Assembly: GCA_021295965.1 (NCBI GenBank)
Contig: JAGWBI010000011.1
Span: 1-45,067 of the forward strand
Length of the DNA: 45,067 nt
Direction of reading: 5' to 3'
DNA from: Dehalococcoidia bacterium
GTDB taxonomy: Bacteria; Chloroflexota; Dehalococcoidia; Lucifugimonadales; UBA3495
Shown here: piece after piece, positions 1,592 through 9,832 of the stretch
How positions within the stretch are numbered: the stretch's first letter is position 1
Layout: each line of letters begins with the position of its first letter
Program-made: the position numbers and the translations under genes
The notes under the pieces: generated by a model
Databases searched by the model: none
What the model saw: the letters and a program-made list of their open reading frames with translations, nothing else
Told to the model about the DNA's origin: nothing

Positions 1592-1881
1592 ATGAATTTC
1601 ACTTGGTCGGACGATAAGAATTACCTGATACGGCGGCAGCGGATGATAGCTTTTGAGGATAGCGCCATCGCAGTTGACCGAAACAATGTGATTGAAACAT
1701 TCCCAATCACAATCCGGAGCGATACCTTGGACAGCACTTGTTTCTAGTGATGGTGAGAGAATATCTTCATACTGTTCCTTTTTATCAAATTGACGATGAC
1801 ACGGTTCGGTTTGTGACAGCCTATCCGGACGGCGAACGAATGCGCCGGTATGGGTTAAGGAGGAGATATGATTCACATTGA
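1592..1881 (+). pseudogene. BrnT-like ribonuclease toxin with a one-base frameshift
   Basis: Frame 2 from ATG 1592 reads MNFTWSDDKN then IRRQRMIAFED, the usual start of a BrnT-family (COG2929) toxin. It runs off the family pattern after codon GAA at 1694-1696. Frame 1 from 1696 continues it with NIPNHNPERYLGQ, VPFYQIDDDTVRFVTAYP and an Arg-rich end stopping at 1881, matching the family's second half. One missing A in the AAA run at 1695-1697 explains the break; restoring it would give about 96 residues, a normal toxin length. BrnT proteins are known ribonucleases neutralised by a downstream antitoxin. The 3' end overlaps the next gene's start by 14 bases, as in intact operons. It may be a true inactivating mutation, a sequencing error or, less likely, programmed frameshifting. 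Confidence 0.68.
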
Positions 1882-2311
1882 CTATCCTTATATTGATGAC
1901 GAGGAGCGGGAAATCATCGAATCGCTCAATCGCGGCGAATGGTCTCCAGTAAGCGATGAGGAGTATATACGGATCGTAACCATGCTGAAGGAAGCCGCGC
2001 GGAATACCCTTGGCTTGCCGCCGGAGGAGAACCCGCAGATTCCGCCACGCCGCCGGCCATTGTCTCTAGTCGAGCTTATCGCGCAGCTGCCCTCGGACAC
2101 TACGGAAGCAATGCAGCATTTTGACGATGAAGAGCGAGATATTATCGAAGCGTATTTTCGGGGCGAGGCGGTAACGGCCAGCGAAGGCAGGCTATGCGAA
2201 ATAGTTGCTCGCCTGTTGATAGCAGCGGAGCAATCCCCGCCATCCGAAACGGCGCCCGTCCCGCGCAGTATGTCCTCAACGTCTGATACACCCGCAAAGG
2301 GGAGCATCAAA
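1868..2311 (+). other. Antitoxin-like coding segment without a stop, in frame with the aminotransferase
   Basis: Starting at an ATG with a strong AGGAGGAG site, this 148-codon segment opens with YIDDEEREIIES and RGEWSPVSDEE, then an EAARNTLG stretch. That is the N-terminal pattern of antitoxins partnered with BrnT-like toxins. The expected ribbon-helix-helix second half is absent. Instead a second, diverged copy of the same motif (FDDEERDIIEAYFRGE) appears at residues 85-100, followed by a low-complexity Ser/Pro linker. No stop codon separates it from the aminotransferase whose own start is ATG 2312. It overlaps the toxin remnant by 14 bases, supporting the antitoxin reading. DNA binding is doubtful because the RHH core is not seen. 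Confidence 0.6.
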
Positions 2312-3646
2312 ATGCCTACCATTCTGGAACAGTACATCGCCAACCACCCCGGCTCGGCAGAGCGTTATCGCGAGGCCGTGAGCATCTTCCCAGGGGGCGT
2401 GACCCACGACAACCGCTATGCCGAACCCTTTCCGCTGTACATCACCCACGGACAGGGCCCGCGCAAGTGGGACGTGGACGGGCACGAATACATCGACTAC
2501 GTTTCGGGCCACGGCGCTTTGATCCTGGGACACTCCCACCCGGCCATCGCCGACGCGGTGACGGAGCAGATCCGGAGGGGCACCCACCTGGGCGCGTGTA
2601 CCGACGAGGAACTGCGTTGGGCCCGGTCAATCATGGCGCTCATGCCGGCCATCGAGCGAGTGCGGTTCCACAGCAGCGGCACCGAGGCCACCCTGATGGC
2701 CATGCGCCTGGCCCGGGCCTACACCGGGCGCAATAAGGTCATCAAGCTGCAGGACCACTTCCACGGTTGGCATGACTACGCCATGGCCGGCTCCGACCGC
2801 CCCGCTCCTGGTATACCCGCCGAGTCCTGGGGCAGCATGATCATCGTGCCGGCCGGTGACCTGGACGCGGTGCAGCAGGCCATGGAAGGCGACAAAGACA
2901 TCGCCGCCATCATCCTGGAACCCACCGGGGCGCACTACGGGCAGTTGCCCTTCGACGTGCCCGTGTACCTGGCCGGACTGCGGCAGTTGTGCGACCAGTA
3001 CGGCGTGGCGCTGATATTCGACGAGGTGGTGACGGGGTTCCGCGCCTCTTCGGGCGGGGCCCAGGTTCTTTACGGCGTCACGCCGGACCTGACTACAATG
3101 GCCAAAATCGTGGCCGGCGCTCTGCCCGGCGGCGCGGTGGGCGGCAAGGCCGACATCGTGGACATGATCGCCCAGCGTGGCGACCCCAACTGGGACAACA
3201 CCGAGCGGGTCTATCACCCCGGCACCTTCAACGCCAACCCGTTGTCAGCTGTGGCCGGAGCGACCTGCCTGGAGATGATCGCCGCCGAGCCGATCAACGC
3301 CCACGCCGATGCCATGGCGGCCCGCCTAAAGGCCGGCCTGAACGAAGCGTTCACTCGCACGGAAGTGGGGGGCCACGCTTACGGCATCGCGTCGATGGTT
3401 CACTTCACGCTGGCCGAGGGCGATTTCGACCGGGAATTCGGGCCGGACGTGAACAGCCGAATCAAGGCGGCGGCGGCCACGCCGGCGGTGACCGGCATCA
3501 AGCGGGGCCTGCAGAATCACGGCATCGATATCATGGGACGAGACGCCTTCCTGGTGTCGGCGACACATACCGAGGCGGACATCGACGCCACGCTGGCGGC
3601 CTTTGAGGCCACGCTGGCAGAGGTTCGCGCGGAAGGGTTAGTGTAA
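1868..3646 (+). CDS. Class III aminotransferase (glutamate-1-semialdehyde aminomutase-like), with in-frame antitoxin-like N-terminal extension
   Basis: The open frame is 592 codons, but the enzyme itself begins at an internal ATG at 2312, which has its own AAGGGGAG site; from there it is 444 residues, normal for HemL-like class III aminotransferases. Counting from that start, it shows SSGTEAT for PLP phosphate binding near 121-127, DHFHGWHD at 148-155, the PLP-ring Asp in IFDEVVTGFR (D237), and the Schiff-base Lys in TMAKIVAG (K265). Such stand-alone homologues often act on substrates other than glutamate semialdehyde, and no tetrapyrrole gene is nearby, so the substrate is open. The strong AGGAGG start at 1868 means a fusion product is physically possible. 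Internal initiation at 2312 is more likely for the active enzyme. Confidence 0.88.
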   Translation: MIHIDYPYIDDEEREIIESLNRGEWSPVSDEEYIRIVTMLKEAARNTLGLPPEENPQIPPRRRPLSLVELIAQLPSDTTEAMQHFDDEERDIIEAYFRGEAVTASEGRLCEIVARLLIAAEQSPPSETAPVPRSMSSTSDTPAKGSIKMPTILEQYIANHPGSAERYREAVSIFPGGVTHDNRYAEPFPLYITHGQGPRKWDVDGHEYIDYVSGHGALILGHSHPAIADAVTEQIRRGTHLGACTDEELRWARSIMALMPAIERVRFHSSGTEATLMAMRLARAYTGRNKVIKLQDHFHGWHDYAMAGSDRPAPGIPAESWGSMIIVPAGDLDAVQQAMEGDKDIAAIILEPTGAHYGQLPFDVPVYLAGLRQLCDQYGVALIFDEVVTGFRASSGGAQVLYGVTPDLTTMAKIVAGALPGGAVGGKADIVDMIAQRGDPNWDNTERVYHPGTFNANPLSAVAGATCLEMIAAEPINAHADAMAARLKAGLNEAFTRTEVGGHAYGIASMVHFTLAEGDFDREFGPDVNSRIKAAAATPAVTGIKRGLQNHGIDIMGRDAFLVSATHTEADIDATLAAFEATLAEVRAEGLV

Positions 3647-4087: not shown

Positions 4088-4122
4088 CTGGAATAAAACT
4101 CCCATCGACAAGGGGGATAATG

Positions 4123-4863
4123 ATGGCAAGCTTTTGGGAAAAGATCAGCGTCAACGGCAGTGAAATGGATATGTATGCCAGCGTGCCTTCCAGCAGCGCC
4201 GGCTTCAGCGCGCCTTATCCGGCCGTCCTGGTGGCCCAGCACGCCACGGGCGTTGACGCCTTCATCCAGGACATCTGCGACCGGTTGGCGGCTGAGGGTT
4301 ATGCCGCTGTAGCTCCGAGCCTGTACCACCGGCACAGTGAGGAGGCCATCGCCGCCTCCGCCGATGGTGGCCCCCGGCCCAGCCCTGGTGTGTTGCTCAG
4401 CGACCCTGACATCACCGCCGACATCAACGCCGCCGTGGATTGGCTGCTCAATCACGACGCCGTGCAGAGCGACCGCATCGGCGTGACGGGTTTTTGCATG
4501 GGAGGCCGCGTAGCCTGGCTGGCCGCCGCCATCAATTCCAACTTCAAAGCGGTGGTCCCCTACTACGGCGGAAACCTGATGACTACCTGGGGGGTGGGAG
4601 AGACTCCGCCGTTCGACATGGCGGACAATATCAACTGCCCCATGCTGTTCCACTTCGGAGAGATCGACGCCAATCCGTCCCAGGACGATATGCGAAAGCT
4701 GGACGCCGAGTTGGACCGTCTGGGCAAGGCGCACTGGTTCTACACTTATCCCGGCGCCGACCACGCCTTTATGAACCCGGCCGGCGGGCGCTATAACGAA
4801 GCGGCCGCGGTGGCATCCTGGCCTCGCACGTTGGAGTTTTTCGCGCAGTACCTGAAAGCGTAA
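4123..4863 (+). CDS. Dienelactone hydrolase family protein, copy 1
   Basis: An alpha/beta hydrolase of the DLH family, typically a cytoplasmic hydrolase of lactones or esters in degradation of aromatic or other ring compounds. The nucleophile is Cys125 in GFCMGG, with the acid Asp182 (GEIDANPS) and His214 (GADHAFM): the DLH Cys-Asp-His triad. The start at 4123 is chosen over the adjacent ATG at 4120 because it matches the paralogue's MASFWEK start and leaves 6 bases after AGGGGG. The next gene is a close tandem copy with the same N-terminus and the same triad, so this is a local duplication. The physiological substrate cannot be told from the sequence. Confidence 0.9.
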   Translation: MASFWEKISVNGSEMDMYASVPSSSAGFSAPYPAVLVAQHATGVDAFIQDICDRLAAEGYAAVAPSLYHRHSEEAIAASADGGPRPSPGVLLSDPDITADINAAVDWLLNHDAVQSDRIGVTGFCMGGRVAWLAAAINSNFKAVVPYYGGNLMTTWGVGETPPFDMADNINCPMLFHFGEIDANPSQDDMRKLDAELDRLGKAHWFYTYPGADHAFMNPAGGRYNEAAAVASWPRTLEFFAQYLKA

Positions 4864-4935: not shown

Positions 4936-5658
4936 ATGGCCAGTTTCTGGGAAAAACTCACTGTTGACGGCAGCGAAATGGATATGTACGCCAGCGTGCC
5001 CAGCAGCAGCGCCGGCTTCACCGCACCCTATCCGGCGGTGGTGGTGGCGCAGCACGGCGGCGGCGTGGACGAGTTCATCCGCACCATCTGCGACCGGCTG
5101 GCCGCCGAGGGCTACGCCGCAGTCGCGCCCAACCTGTACCATCGCAACTCGGACGAGGTGATGAACGCCGACCCGCGTCCCCGGCCCTGGGATGTGCTCA
5201 GCGATCCCGACATCGTCGCCGACATCGGCGCCACGGTGGACTGGCTGCGAAACCACGACGCAGTCACCGACCGCATCGGGGTTACGGGCTTCTGCATGGG
5301 TGGGCGCGTGGCCTGGTTGGCCGCGGCGAGCAATCCGCACTTCTCAGCGGTGGCGCCGTACTATGGCGGCAACCTGCTGGTGACCTGGGGCGCGGGCGAA
5401 ACGCCGCCTTTTGAGCTGGTTGCCAACATCGATTGCCCCATGCTGTTCCACTTCGGCGAGGTTGACGAAAACCCGTCCCAGGACGATATGCGGAAGTTCG
5501 ACGAGGAGCTGAACCGACTGGGCAAGGAGCACCAGTTCTACGTGTACCGGGACGCTGACCATGCCTTTATGGACTTCACCGGCCCCCGCTACCAGAAGGA
5601 AGCCGCCGACCGCTCGTGGCCGCGCACCCTGGAATTCTTCGCCCAGCATCTGAAGTAG
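4936..5658 (+). CDS. Dienelactone hydrolase family protein, copy 2 (tandem paralogue)
   Basis: 240 residues, closely similar to the preceding gene along its whole length, including identical blocks such as VPSSSAGF and PMLFHFGE. The triad is Cys120 in GFCMGG, Asp177 (GEVDENPS) and His209 (DADHAFM). A five-residue deletion in the loop around residue 78 shortens it relative to copy 1. A strong AGGAGG lies 6 bases before the ATG. Differences concentrate in the loop around residues 70-90 and near the C-terminus, regions that could tune substrate choice. A palindromic repeat lies 10 bases after its stop and may serve as a terminator or mRNA-stabilising hairpin. Confidence 0.9.
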   Translation: MASFWEKLTVDGSEMDMYASVPSSSAGFTAPYPAVVVAQHGGGVDEFIRTICDRLAAEGYAAVAPNLYHRNSDEVMNADPRPRPWDVLSDPDIVADIGATVDWLRNHDAVTDRIGVTGFCMGGRVAWLAAASNPHFSAVAPYYGGNLLVTWGAGETPPFELVANIDCPMLFHFGEVDENPSQDDMRKFDEELNRLGKEHQFYVYRDADHAFMDFTGPRYQKEAADRSWPRTLEFFAQHLK

Positions 5659-6395: not shown

Positions 6396-6920
6396 ATGCC
6401 CCGTGTAGCGCTCGATTTGGAACAGAAAGAGGATCTGGCCGTCATCAAGTCCGACGGTTGGCGGATCGCGCAAGGCCTGGAACCCGGGGAACCGAACCAA
6501 GGGTTGGTCGCCGAGATGCTGGGCAGCAACGCCCGTCTGCCCGACTATGACGACTCCGGCTGGGAAAGCGGCGCGGACTTCCAGAAGCGGTATTCCATTG
6601 GTTTCACCTTCGCCTGGTATCGCCTGCGGTTCACCATGCCCGAGACGGTGAAGGGCCAGGATGTATCGGCCTGCCGCGTCTGGTTTGAGACCAACGTGGA
6701 CAACTACGGCGAGGTGTACATCGACGGCAAGATCGACCGCAACATCGGCGCAGTCACGGGCAACAACACGCCCAAGCGCGTGCTGTTGGAAGAGCCGGGC
6801 GAGCCGGGTAAGGAACACGTCATCGCCGTGCTGGTCGCCAACGCTCCCCTGGGCGAACCGGTGGGAGCAATCTTTATGCGCCACGCCACCCTGGCCTTCG
6901 AGTCCCAGCCGCCGCGGTAG
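6396..6920 (+). CDS. Galactose-binding-like beta-sandwich protein (GH2 N-terminal type), no catalytic domain
   Basis: 174 residues preceded by AAGGAGT. The segment DYDDSGWESGADF, followed by FAWYRLRFTMPE, CRVWFETNVDNYGEVYIDGK and a closing strand, matches the N-terminal jelly-roll domain of glycoside hydrolase family 2 and related proteins. There is no TIM-barrel or other catalytic domain. No signal peptide is visible, so it is probably cytoplasmic. It may bind a carbohydrate or another small ligand, or be an adaptor. Its neighbour downstream is the MNT-HEPN protein, 24 bases away, suggesting co-transcription but not an obvious functional link. Confidence 0.65.
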   Translation: MPRVALDLEQKEDLAVIKSDGWRIAQGLEPGEPNQGLVAEMLGSNARLPDYDDSGWESGADFQKRYSIGFTFAWYRLRFTMPETVKGQDVSACRVWFETNVDNYGEVYIDGKIDRNIGAVTGNNTPKRVLLEEPGEPGKEHVIAVLVANAPLGEPVGAIFMRHATLAFESQPPR

Positions 6921-6944: not shown

Positions 6945-7742
6945 ATGACCGCAGCCACCTGCGACCTCCGCGCGCTCAGCGTGGCGAAAGCCGTGCATGA
7001 GCGCGAGCGGCCCCTGGCCACTATCCTGTTCGGTTCCCGGGCCCGGGGCGACTACGAAGAGCGCCGCTCTGACATTGACATCATGCTGGTGCAGGCCGAA
7101 GAGCCAGATGGCGAGTACCAAGGGTCAGTGGAGAGATGGGCGGAAGGCGTCGTCCAGGCTGCCTACGGGCGCTGGGTGCCGGTTCAACTGGTCTGGATCT
7201 CGGAGCAGGGGTTCAACGAAGGAAAACGGTACATCAACCACGTCGCAACCCAGGCTCTGTTCGACGGTATCATCATGACGCAAAACCCGGAGGAATACCA
7301 AAACCGCGACGCAGACGACGAGGAAGCGGAGTACGAGTACGACTGGACGCCCTACAATGAACGGATGCGCCATGCCGAAGCGCATTTAGAAGCATTTGTA
7401 TTGTGCGTAGAAAATGGGATGAACGATTTAATAATCGGGCAACAGGCGCAGAACACGCTGGAACACGCTATGAAAGCCCTACTGGAAGTCCATCGCGTCA
7501 GATACCAGCGCACCCACAACATAGGCAACCTGCTGGGCAATATCAGGCATATCGACCCTGAACTGCGCGATCTGGCTATCAGCATAGCCCCCGACATCTA
7601 CACCAAATACACAGGCGAGCAAGCGTATGAATTGTCCGAGCCTCTGCTCACTGACCAACCCGACTACCGGGAGCGAACCGTCGCCGACGCCCAGCACATC
7701 ATCAACCGCGCCCGCGAGGTGCGCCAACAGCAAGACGCTTAG
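6945..7742 (+). CDS. Nucleotidyltransferase (MNT)-HEPN fusion protein
   Basis: 265 residues with two parts. Residues about 23-85 form a minimal nucleotidyltransferase domain with FGSRARG (G30, S31) and SDIDIML (D43, D45). The usual third acidic residue is not evident in VPVQLVWI, so catalysis may be altered. After an acidic linker (about 118-135), residues about 140-260 form a helical HEPN domain with the R-x4-H ribonuclease-type motif R186-YQRT-H191 followed by NIG. In the known MntA/HepT systems these parts are separate toxin and antitoxin genes, the MNT protein modifying the HEPN RNase. Here both are on one chain, so either self-regulation or a nucleotidyltransferase with a substrate-binding HEPN domain (kanamycin-nucleotidyltransferase-like layout) is possible. 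Confidence 0.78.
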
Positions 7743-7804
7743 CTCTTGGGCGCAAATCGCTCCATCTATCGCCGCCACCTGCAACGACACCCTGGAGGCT
7801 CCAC

Positions 7805-9325
7805 ATGGCCACCCAATCCTTCGCCGGCACCGTCAACGCGCCGGACTTTCCTGACAACGTCGAATGGATCAACACCGACCGGCCCCTGAGCATGGCCGAC
7901 CTGCGCGGGAAGGTGGTGGTGCTGGACTTCTGGACCTATTGTTGAGTGAACTGCATGCACGTGTTTCCGCAGTTGCGGAAAATGGAAGAGAAGTATGCAG
8001 ACGAACTGGTGGTCATTGGCGTCCACTCGGCCAAGTTCCCCAACGAGAAGTACGCCGATAACGTGCTGATGGCGGCCCAGCGTTACGAGTTGGAACACCC
8101 CATCGTCAACGATGCCGAGTTTGAGGTTTGGCGGCAGTATGCCTGCCGCGCCTGGCCCACCCTGATGTTCGTTGACCCTGAGGGCAAGGTCATCGGCAAG
8201 CACGAGGGTGAGTTGCCTTACGAGGCCTTCGACGACCTGCTGGGCCGTATGATCGCCGAGTTCGATGGACAGGGCTTGATCGACCGTCGCAGCCTGGGCC
8301 TCAAACCGGAGGCGGCGGCGGAGTCCGCCCTGGCCTTTCCCGGCAAGGTGCTGGCCGACGGCCCGGGCAACCGGCTGTTCATCGCCGACACCAACCACAA
8401 CCGCATCGTCATAACCGATTTGGAAGGACAGGTCCAGGCCGTCGTCGGCTCCGGCGCTGAGGACTTCGCGGACGGCGACTACGCATCCGCCGCCTTCAAC
8501 CATCCCCAGGGCATGGAATTGTTGGGCGACATTCTCTATGTGGCGGACACCGAGAACCACGCCATACGTCGGGTCAACCTCTCCGCCGGTACGGTGGACA
8601 CCATCGCCGGCACCGGGGAGCAGGGCCACGACCGCCGGGCGCAGGGGCCGGGGCGTCAGATAGCCCTGAGCAGTCCCTGGGACCTGGCCCATCACGACGG
8701 CACGTTGTACATCGCCATGGCCGGCATCCACCAGCTTTGGCGGCTGTCGCTGGCCGACGGTACGGTCTGCCCCCACGCCGGCACCGGCGGTGAGAATATT
8801 GACAACGGCCCGCTGGCCACCGCAACGCTGGCCCAGCCCAGCGGCATCGTCGTGGGAACCGACCGGGGAGGCGACGCCACGCTGTACTTCGCCGACTCGG
8901 AGACCAGCAGCATCCGCAGCGCCGGCATCGACCCGGTGGCGGGGCGGGTGGCGACGCTGGTGGGCATCGACCTGTTCGCCTTCGGCGACCGGGACGGCGT
9001 GGAGCACCACGTGCGTCTGCAACACCCCATCGGCATCGAGTGGCACGAGGGCGAGCTGTTCATCGCCGACACCTACAACCACAAGATCAAGAAGGTCCTG
9101 CCGCTAACCCGCTCGGTGCAGACCGTCCTGGGTTCCGGCGCGGTGGGCCTGCACGACGGCGCGGGAAAGCTGGCGACGTTCAGCGAACCCAGCGGGCTGA
9201 GTTTCGCCGTTTTCGACAACGGGCGAGCGCCGCTGCTCTACATCGCCGACACCAACAGCCACGCCATCCGCGTTGCCGACCTCCAGGCCGACGAGGTTCG
9301 GACGCTGGAGCTGAGCGGGCTGTAA
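7805..9325 (+). CDS. Thioredoxin-fold / NHL-repeat protein, candidate selenoprotein (Sec47)
   Basis: Read from ATG 7805 (TGGAGG 6 bases upstream), the frame is interrupted only by TGA at 7943-7945 and is otherwise open to 9325, 506 residues. Residues 1-150 are a thioredoxin-like domain: DFWTYC, then the TGA codon, then [10 protein letters not shown], and a cis-Pro region [12 protein letters not shown]. Homologues of this NHLRC2-like architecture carry WTYCCINC, so TGA replaces the redox cysteine and gives U47-V-N-C50. Residues about 170-500 hold NHL beta-propeller repeats ([40 protein letters not shown]). A perfect hairpin at 7964-7981 could be the SECIS. No selA/B/C/D gene is in this window. 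Without Sec insertion, only 46 residues or an internal-start product lacking the active site could be made. Confidence 0.85.
7964..7981 (+). promoter_or_regulatory. Candidate bacterial SECIS hairpin
   Basis: TTTCCGC, loop AGTT, GCGGAAA: a perfect 7-base-pair stem starting 18 bases after the in-frame TGA at 7943-7945; the loop begins 25 bases after it. From memory, bacterial SECIS elements lie just downstream of the UGA with an apical loop roughly 16-37 bases away and a G within the first two loop bases; this hairpin fits both. It lies inside the coding sequence, as expected for bacteria. Confidence 0.62.
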
Positions 9326-9352
9326 TCTTCACGAAATCAACAGGTGACAAAT

Positions 9353-9832
9353 ATGGTAGTTTCCGAGGCATCCGACCCGACCGCCGAACCCATGGTCGAG
9401 ATGGCTGAACCCGACCCCGAATACGCAGTCCATTCCGAAGACAGCATCACCCTGCTTGCCAGCAAGATAATCCGCGACGTGCTGGTCACCCGCGGCGAAC
9501 CCATACGGCGAGCGCAGCTATGGCAGGCCGTAGAGCTATCGATGGGCGACCGGTCGCCCGACGTGGACGGCGTGTTGAAACGGGACTGGTTCAGCAACCA
9601 GGACACCGGGCCGGGCCGCTGGCGCCTGACCGACGTGGTTGAAACCGGCGCCTCCCCCTTCACCAACTCCGCCGGCGCGGTCAACCTGGCCGCAGTGGTC
9701 GAATATCTCCGGGTGTGTCGCCAAGGCGAGGCTCCCTACATCGGCGATGTCGGGGAGTTCATCAAGCTGTGCCGGCCTGATATCGAACTGGATGCCGGTT
9801 GGCTGCTGGAGAGCGGCCGGGCCATTGAGTAG
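9353..9832 (+). CDS. Uncharacterised acidic protein, possible winged-helix fold
   Basis: 159 residues from ATG 9353, with AGGTG 6 bases upstream (an in-frame GTG at 9344 would add three residues). The first 30 residues are acidic and probably disordered. Residues about 35-95 (SKIIRDVLVTRGEPIRRAQL, then GVLKRDWF and RWRLTD) look like a short winged-helix layout: two helices then a beta wing. The remainder is helical (AAVVEYLRVCRQ, IGDVGEFIKLC). No family is recognised. It follows the selenoprotein candidate by 27 bases and could be co-transcribed. It has no Fe-S cysteine motif, so it is not an AprB for the downstream gene. Confidence 0.6.
   Translation: MVVSEASDPTAEPMVEMAEPDPEYAVHSEDSITLLASKIIRDVLVTRGEPIRRAQLWQAVELSMGDRSPDVDGVLKRDWFSNQDTGPGRWRLTDVVETGASPFTNSAGAVNLAAVVEYLRVCRQGEAPYIGDVGEFIKLCRPDIELDAGWLLESGRAIE

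Follow-up and report, generated by a model that had tools for sequence, protein, structure and literature searches.

A probable selenocysteine codon at the redox-cysteine position of a bacterial thioredoxin-like/NHL-propeller protein of the NHLRC2/SOQ1 family

Members of the NHLRC2/SOQ1 family take part in the control of chloroplast quenching and are essential in mouse development. Human NHLRC2 (PDB 6gc1) and Arabidopsis SOQ1 (7djj/7djk) share a thioredoxin-like domain, an NHL propeller and a CC(I/V)NC motif; SOQ1 has additional HAD and transmembrane parts, and NHLRC2 a C-terminal domain (PMC6107167). The same paper describes NHLRC2 as essential in mammals with an unknown function and SOQ1 as a regulator of photoprotective quenching in plants, places the CCINC motif of NHLRC2 in the cleft between the two domains, and reports human NHLRC2 to be inactive in an insulin-reduction assay. 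Bacterial selenocysteine (Sec) thioredoxins (Trx, Trx-like 1, Prx-like and the redoxin family) combine a UxxC motif and a thioredoxin fold with a bacterial SECIS element (bSECIS) expected just downstream of the UGA. In the inventory of PMC13188914 they are described by Trx-, Prx- or Redoxin-type domains alone, with no NHL propeller named. The protein described here, encoded in a 45,067-nt stretch of a Dehalococcoidia genome (hereafter the window), shares its architecture and motif with NHLRC2 and SOQ1 but most probably carries Sec where these have Cys (human Cys90), and its UxxC, thioredoxin fold and downstream bSECIS are those of the bacterial Sec thioredoxins.

The gene occupies a 506-residue frame closed by a TAA stop. 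As the preliminary description had stated, its sole interruption is a TGA at residue 47, which coincides with the first Cys of the thioredoxin CxxC. The thioredoxin core and NHL repeats claimed there were borne out by Pfam, in which NHL, Thioredoxin_8, AhpC-TSA, Redoxin and Thioredoxin all scored above cut-off in a protein search (the TGA was entered as C in the query for the search programs). Inspection by eye revealed no obvious signal peptide in the 506-residue protein. The features of the locus are as follows.

7805–9325, plus strand: coding sequence of the putative Sec-containing thioredoxin-like/NHL-propeller protein, 506 residues, TAA stop (frame reading, Pfam)
7794–7798, plus strand: GGAGG, Shine-Dalgarno-like, with the ATG 6 nt further on (sequence read directly)
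7943–7945, plus strand: TGA, probable Sec codon, residue 47, the U of C46-U47-V-N-C50 (TGA/TGC/TGT-only column)
7964–7981, plus strand: bSECIS hairpin TTTCCGC-AGTT-GCGGAAA, loop 25 nt after the UGA (folding, covariation, synonymous conservation)
7835–8260, plus strand: thioredoxin-like domain, approximately residues 11–152 (Pfam, model, sequence match to solved structures)
8324–9322, plus strand: NHL beta-propeller, six four-stranded blades in the model, approximately residues 174–506 (Pfam, model, Foldseek)
6396–6920, plus strand: conserved upstream neighbor, 174 aa, probably a stand-alone GH2-type sugar-binding domain (locus comparison, sub-threshold Pfam match, model)

Sequence matches to solved structures were strongest for SOQ1 (7djj, E 1.3e-128, residues 11–505) and NHLRC2 (6gc1, E 5.5e-115, residues 10–501). 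An AlphaFold2 model built from a 24-row alignment (mean pLDDT 94.2, pTM 0.92) has a propeller of six four-stranded blades, and its best solved matches in Foldseek were again SOQ1 (TMq 0.92) and NHLRC2 (TMq 0.90–0.91); the predicted fold is therefore that of NHLRC2/SOQ1. The CC(I/V)NC motif of these proteins appears as CUVNC, with U47 aligned on the middle Cys of CCINC. By the numbering of that motif as residues 89–93 in PMC6107167, the aligned position is human Cys90, the first Cys of CxxC. The closest bacterial solved sequence to the thioredoxin domain is the C-terminal thioredoxin domain of DipZ from Mycobacterium tuberculosis (2hyx, E 1e-23), a Cys form that has SCINC in place of CUVNC and whose match is confined to this domain. 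The preliminary description had pictured a large Sec-containing redox protein without known partners; the Sec part of that picture was upheld, whereas the protein is no orphan, as it belongs with NHLRC2 and SOQ1.

A bacterial selenoprotein is expected to show an in-frame UGA aligned with a Cys of its homologues, a conserved bSECIS downstream of the UGA, coding constraint on both sides of it, and the genes for tRNA-Sec, SelA, SelB and SelD in the same genome. The codon at residue 47 was read in 121 distinct homologues, of which 77 have TGA, 28 TGC and 16 TGT; no other codon, and hence no other stop, occupies this column, which is restricted to Cys or TGA as the preliminary description had anticipated for a selenoprotein. 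The set was assembled from 110 loci (L021–L130), of which 18 were removed as matching another locus over nucleotides 301–900 of the aligned coding sequence, leaving 92, and from 29 added loci (L131–L159), giving 121 rows that are all different proteins. Among 60 relatives, an orthologue of full or nearly full length is present in 38, with exactly one TGA in each (including that of G023, which ends at residue 426), and the remaining 22 have just partial or more distant matches among the matches listed. The same TGA is present in 13 of 13 same-genus genomes, which excludes an error in a single assembly as its source. Of 301 genomes drawn from across the phylum, 55 (our own included) match at E ≤ 1e-90; 43 of these carry one TGA and 12 no stop, one of the latter (G321) not spanning residue 47. 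The codon itself could be read in 29 of the 54 matches from other genomes, and the other 25 were read by stop count alone. By name, the sources of the TGA form are SAR202 and other Chloroflexota, Rokubacteria, Methylomirabilota/NC10 and one Nitrospirae-labelled MAG, which is nearly identical to an NC10 one and may be misassigned. A plasmid search returned 238 records, all below 60% identity, with query coverage of at least 80% in two. Residue 50 is Cys in all 121 homologues, while residue 46 is Cys in 76 of the 77 Sec forms and 29 of the 44 Cys forms, the other 15 Cys forms having Gly.

The hairpin at 7964–7981 starts 18 nt past the TGA and has a G at position 2 of its loop, so that the perfect 7-bp stem of the preliminary description was recovered as stated. 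It also lies inside the published bSECIS limits (loop of 3–9 nt, stem of 4–16 bp, spacing of 16–37 nt, MFE ≤ −7.5), which were applied through our own implementation of the published values. Folding of the 58 nt that begin with the TGA gives −18.5 kcal/mol (z −3.42; as good a value in 2 of 200 shuffles), and the bare stem evaluates to −8.7. Taken alone, the hairpin is weak evidence, since equally strong stems are common: a bSECIS-like stem of this strength occurs at 2,544 of 44,997 plus-strand positions and after 47 of the 616 plus-strand TGAs of the window. An Rfam search of 7700–8300 at E ≤ 10 gave no match at the hairpin and two chance-level matches on the minus strand. Thus, the hairpin of the earlier argument is real but not rare, and it is its conservation, not its presence in one sequence, that puts it above chance; synonymous recodings of the gene point the same way, 135 of 20,000 reaching −8.7 and 1,267 of 20,000 reaching −7.5.

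In 74 of the 77 TGA homologues the hairpin stands at an identical offset from the TGA; the pair table left out three TGA genes (L121, L128 and L129) whose hairpins are different. Twelve distinct versions occur among these 74, in which 515 of 518 cells are paired and 21 are compensatory, both sides differing from the common pair (15 at the outermost pair, T-A to C-G, four at pair 3 and two at pair 4); some of these cells are shared by related sequences, and the 21 therefore do not stand for as many separate events. When the partner was slid by 1–3 positions in six controls, only 33–71% of cells paired, with 0–5 double changes. The loop is AGTT in 72 of the 74, GGTT in one and ATTT in one. The bSECIS limits, at −7.5 or better, are reached by 46 of 50 TGA versus 0 of 42 Cys genes in the first set and by 27 of 27 versus 0 of 2 in the second (73 of 77 versus 0 of 44 together), a contrast of which lower G+C in some Cys genes may explain part. 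Exceptions among the TGA genes are a stem mismatch at pair 3 in L069 and L074 and at pair 1 in L137, and L129, whose best stem scores only −5.9. Codons 51–58 of 50 Sec genes show a synonymous identity of 0.84 (mean 0.51), rank 1 of 499 windows, whereas the same codons of 42 Cys genes are ordinary (0.42, mean 0.38). The residues encoded there are QLR in most Sec forms versus DLK in most Cys forms; at the hairpin codons the amino acids bend to the need of the RNA. The ATTT loop, which lacks the G, belongs to the TGA gene L046, whose near twin L045 has AGTT; either nature has here put the loop G to the test or the assembly is wrong.

The machinery that the preliminary description had named for a search is complete in the genome itself (3.23 Mb in 86 contigs, 86.6% complete, 5.9% contamination): a tRNA-Sec (69 bits; anticodon tca by ARAGORN), SelB (356 bits), SelA (546 bits) and SelD (379 bits) all score over cut-off. 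Three further genomes (G003, G007 and G010) each carry the TGA gene and a 66.4-bit tRNA-Sec on one contig, a pairing that binning error or contamination cannot explain because both lie on the same single contig. A threshold of 59 bits was set by us for tRNA-Sec within empty gaps of the scores (59.7 to 54.9 and 59.4 to 52.3 bits), because matches over the Rfam cut-off include other tRNAs. By this threshold, a clear tRNA-Sec is absent from 7 of 50 TGA-form genomes (4 of 38 relatives and 3 of 12 others); selA is over cut-off in three of the seven but not in G020 (66% complete), G029 (71% complete), G068 (partial selA, 65.6 bits) and G107. As a discriminator of the Sec form, co-occurrence with tRNA-Sec failed, both among the 60 relatives (34 of 38 with the TGA gene versus 19 of 22 without) and in a second set of 50 genomes, from which the Cys-form loci L108, L113, L124 and L125 were left out (9 of 12 TGA-form versus 29 of 38 Cys-form). 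Machinery presence does not separate the forms, because 29 of 38 Cys-form genomes also have tRNA-Sec.

The SelD gene of the same genome (L017, C8:23659–24582) has one in-frame TGA, at its UAAK site (CAGUAAK); the genome therefore has at least one more, classical, selenoprotein candidate.

These lines of evidence have to be weighed against accounts in which no Sec is made. Loss of an ancestral Cys codon by nonsense mutation, or its misreading in sequencing, would need a single substitution, TGC and TGT both being one step from TGA, yet the same TGA recurs in 13 of 13 same-genus genomes and in all 38 orthologues among the 60 relatives. The sequence beyond it shows no decay, which the preliminary description had named as a refuting sign, but is under purifying selection: dN/dS over 13 same-genus pairs is 0.06–0.14 after the TGA and 0.08–0.22 before it, so that the coding sequence is constrained on either side. 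Neither TAA nor TAG occurs within the aligned portion of 50 TGA genes. We regard mutation or error as exceedingly improbable. Scarcely more credible is a pair of separate products, in which a peptide of 46 residues ends at the TGA and translation starts anew at GTG 7946, although this GTG directly 3′ of the TGA does open a 459-aa ORF. Of the 77 TGA genes, just 10 have GTG as the codon after the TGA and the other 67 have ATC, ATT or GTC, so that re-initiation cannot serve as a general account; the break would moreover split the CxxC from its preceding strand, and it leaves the Cys of the homologues and the conserved hairpin unexplained.

At the protein level, no difference would be apparent if the single UGA were read without Sec, whether as a sense codon of the lineage or by a near-cognate tRNA (Trp or Cys). 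However, TGA is a normal stop here, ending 3 of the 12 window ORFs examined and serving as the final stop in 24 of the 73 Sec genes whose end was seen (77 inspected). Residue 47 alternates with Cys codons only, dedicated Sec machinery is present and a covarying SECIS is kept, and we consider such read-through very unlikely. UGA-Sec decoding competes with termination, from which it follows that the TGA of a selenoprotein could also act as a selenium-controlled switch, yielding a short peptide and no protein when selenium is lacking. Selection on the first 46 codons fits this account, but is equally accounted for by the full-length protein, and there is no evidence of function for the short product; we consider an added switch role unlikely. 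The in-frame TGA at 7943–7945 is, from comparative sequence evidence, most probably a selenocysteine codon, and we are highly confident that this NHLRC2/SOQ1-family protein is made as a selenoprotein, with Sec inserted at residue 47 through SelB and the hairpin. The selenoprotein candidate of the preliminary description is thereby supported by machinery, the TGA/Cys column, a covarying hairpin and downstream constraint.

Chloroflexota and Rokubacteria have Sec forms, as does Methylomirabilota, there with hairpins unrelated to the common one; the hairpins of L121/L128 and of L129 are different. In a quick tree of 92 proteins, the Sec label needs two changes, and a single origin of Sec was rejected by an AU test on the 92 rows (p 0.0064, log-likelihood loss 49.57). 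A quick tree of all 121 rows requires four label changes, three of which starred branches make unavoidable; this tree carries long-branch warnings, and its root forks are weak. Codons 41–66 were excluded from the trees. Together with the different hairpins, the trees favor at least two origins of Sec, with the reservation that they contain long branches. Within the same phylum, the Cys forms L131 and L154 both retain the H/QLR stretch with no scoring hairpin. L154 is sister to the Sec form L156 with starred support and looks like a Sec-to-Cys reversion followed by hairpin decay; the placement of L131, on a long branch, is less secure. On balance, and with modest confidence, we favor a broader reading in which the NHLRC2/SOQ1 type is a so far unreported selenoprotein family that acquired Sec in place of the middle Cys of CCINC on two or more occasions, with a separate SECIS for each (in Chloroflexota plus Rokubacteria and in Methylomirabilota), and in which this Cys (human Cys90) is the nucleophile family-wide, NHLRC2 and SOQ1 being redox enzymes.

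A working scheme for the protein can be put forward. SelB with Sec-tRNA(UCA) would bind the hairpin 3′ of the UGA during translation, and Sec would be inserted at the position of the nucleophilic first Cys of CxxC. Within the cleft that separates the NHL propeller from the thioredoxin domain, U47 would then probably attack an oxidised group such as a disulfide or peroxide, C50 would resolve the selenenyl-sulfide, and the propeller would bind the substrate. Because C50 is invariant and residue 46 is Gly in about a third of the Cys forms, C46 looks dispensable and U47/C50 are likely the redox pair. The negative insulin assay of human NHLRC2 (PMC6107167) argues against ordinary thioredoxin activity and suggests a specific substrate rather than a general activity.

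The genes around the Sec gene were compared across a named-relative set, the best 80 of 583 confirmed relatives. A relative of the 174-aa protein lies upstream of the gene in at least 23 of the 80 loci, all TGA forms, and 49–122 nt from it in 15 of these; the figure is a lower bound because flanks reach at most 4 kb and some contigs are shorter. Its model (pLDDT 74) resembles the sugar-binding domains of GH2 enzymes and a sub-threshold Pfam match agrees, so the product is probably a stand-alone domain of this type. A functional tie to the Sec gene might be supposed; the conserved neighbors examined as partners in the named loci showed no functional link. One locus (L063) has two tandem copies of the 174-aa gene. 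Between this neighbor and the Sec gene, the window has a HEPN plus nucleotidyltransferase gene (6945–7742), which is patchy, since relatives occur in only 4 of the 80 loci. Tandem dienelactone hydrolase genes (4120–4863 and 4936–5658) have relatives in 20 of the loci, a class III aminotransferase (1868–3646) in 14, and a 162-aa protein without a Pfam match directly downstream (9344–9832) in 10. In seven bacterial genomes considered in the NHLRC2 paper, no conserved neighbors were described (PMC6107167).

Full-text searches of published papers (preprints lay outside their scope) returned, by title and start of abstract, none on an NHL, NHLRC2 or SOQ1 selenoprotein, including work on selenoproteins of SAR202, Rokubacteria and Chloroflexi; the single paper pairing NHLRC2 with selenocysteine concerns, by its passages, another enzyme. 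No NHL protein is named in Table 1 of a 2026 review (PMC13188914), which by its own account covers 119 prokaryotic selenoprotein families or subfamilies, and the term NHL is absent from the review's main text. A term search likewise found NHL zero times in the main texts, supplements aside, of PMC2398784, PMC1088965, PMC5029168 and PMC12013277. The classes 'Trx-like 1', 'Prx-like 3', 'Redoxin family protein' and 'Thiol-disulfide isomerase-like' could hide the NHL selenoprotein or fragments of it. On the searches made, it is a probable new selenoprotein family inside a known protein family, not a new kind of system.

Gene callers that take TGA as a stop would be expected to annotate such genes as a 46-residue stub and a truncated protein. 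For the family, a Cys-to-Sec swap at one site, paid for by upkeep of a SECIS, is independent evidence for redox or nucleophilic chemistry at that site. The finding offers a target for mutagenesis, a bacterial enzyme for assays and, for comparison, natural Sec/Cys sisters such as L156 and L154, and it points to the exact residue on which the poorly understood NHLRC2/SOQ1 family depends.
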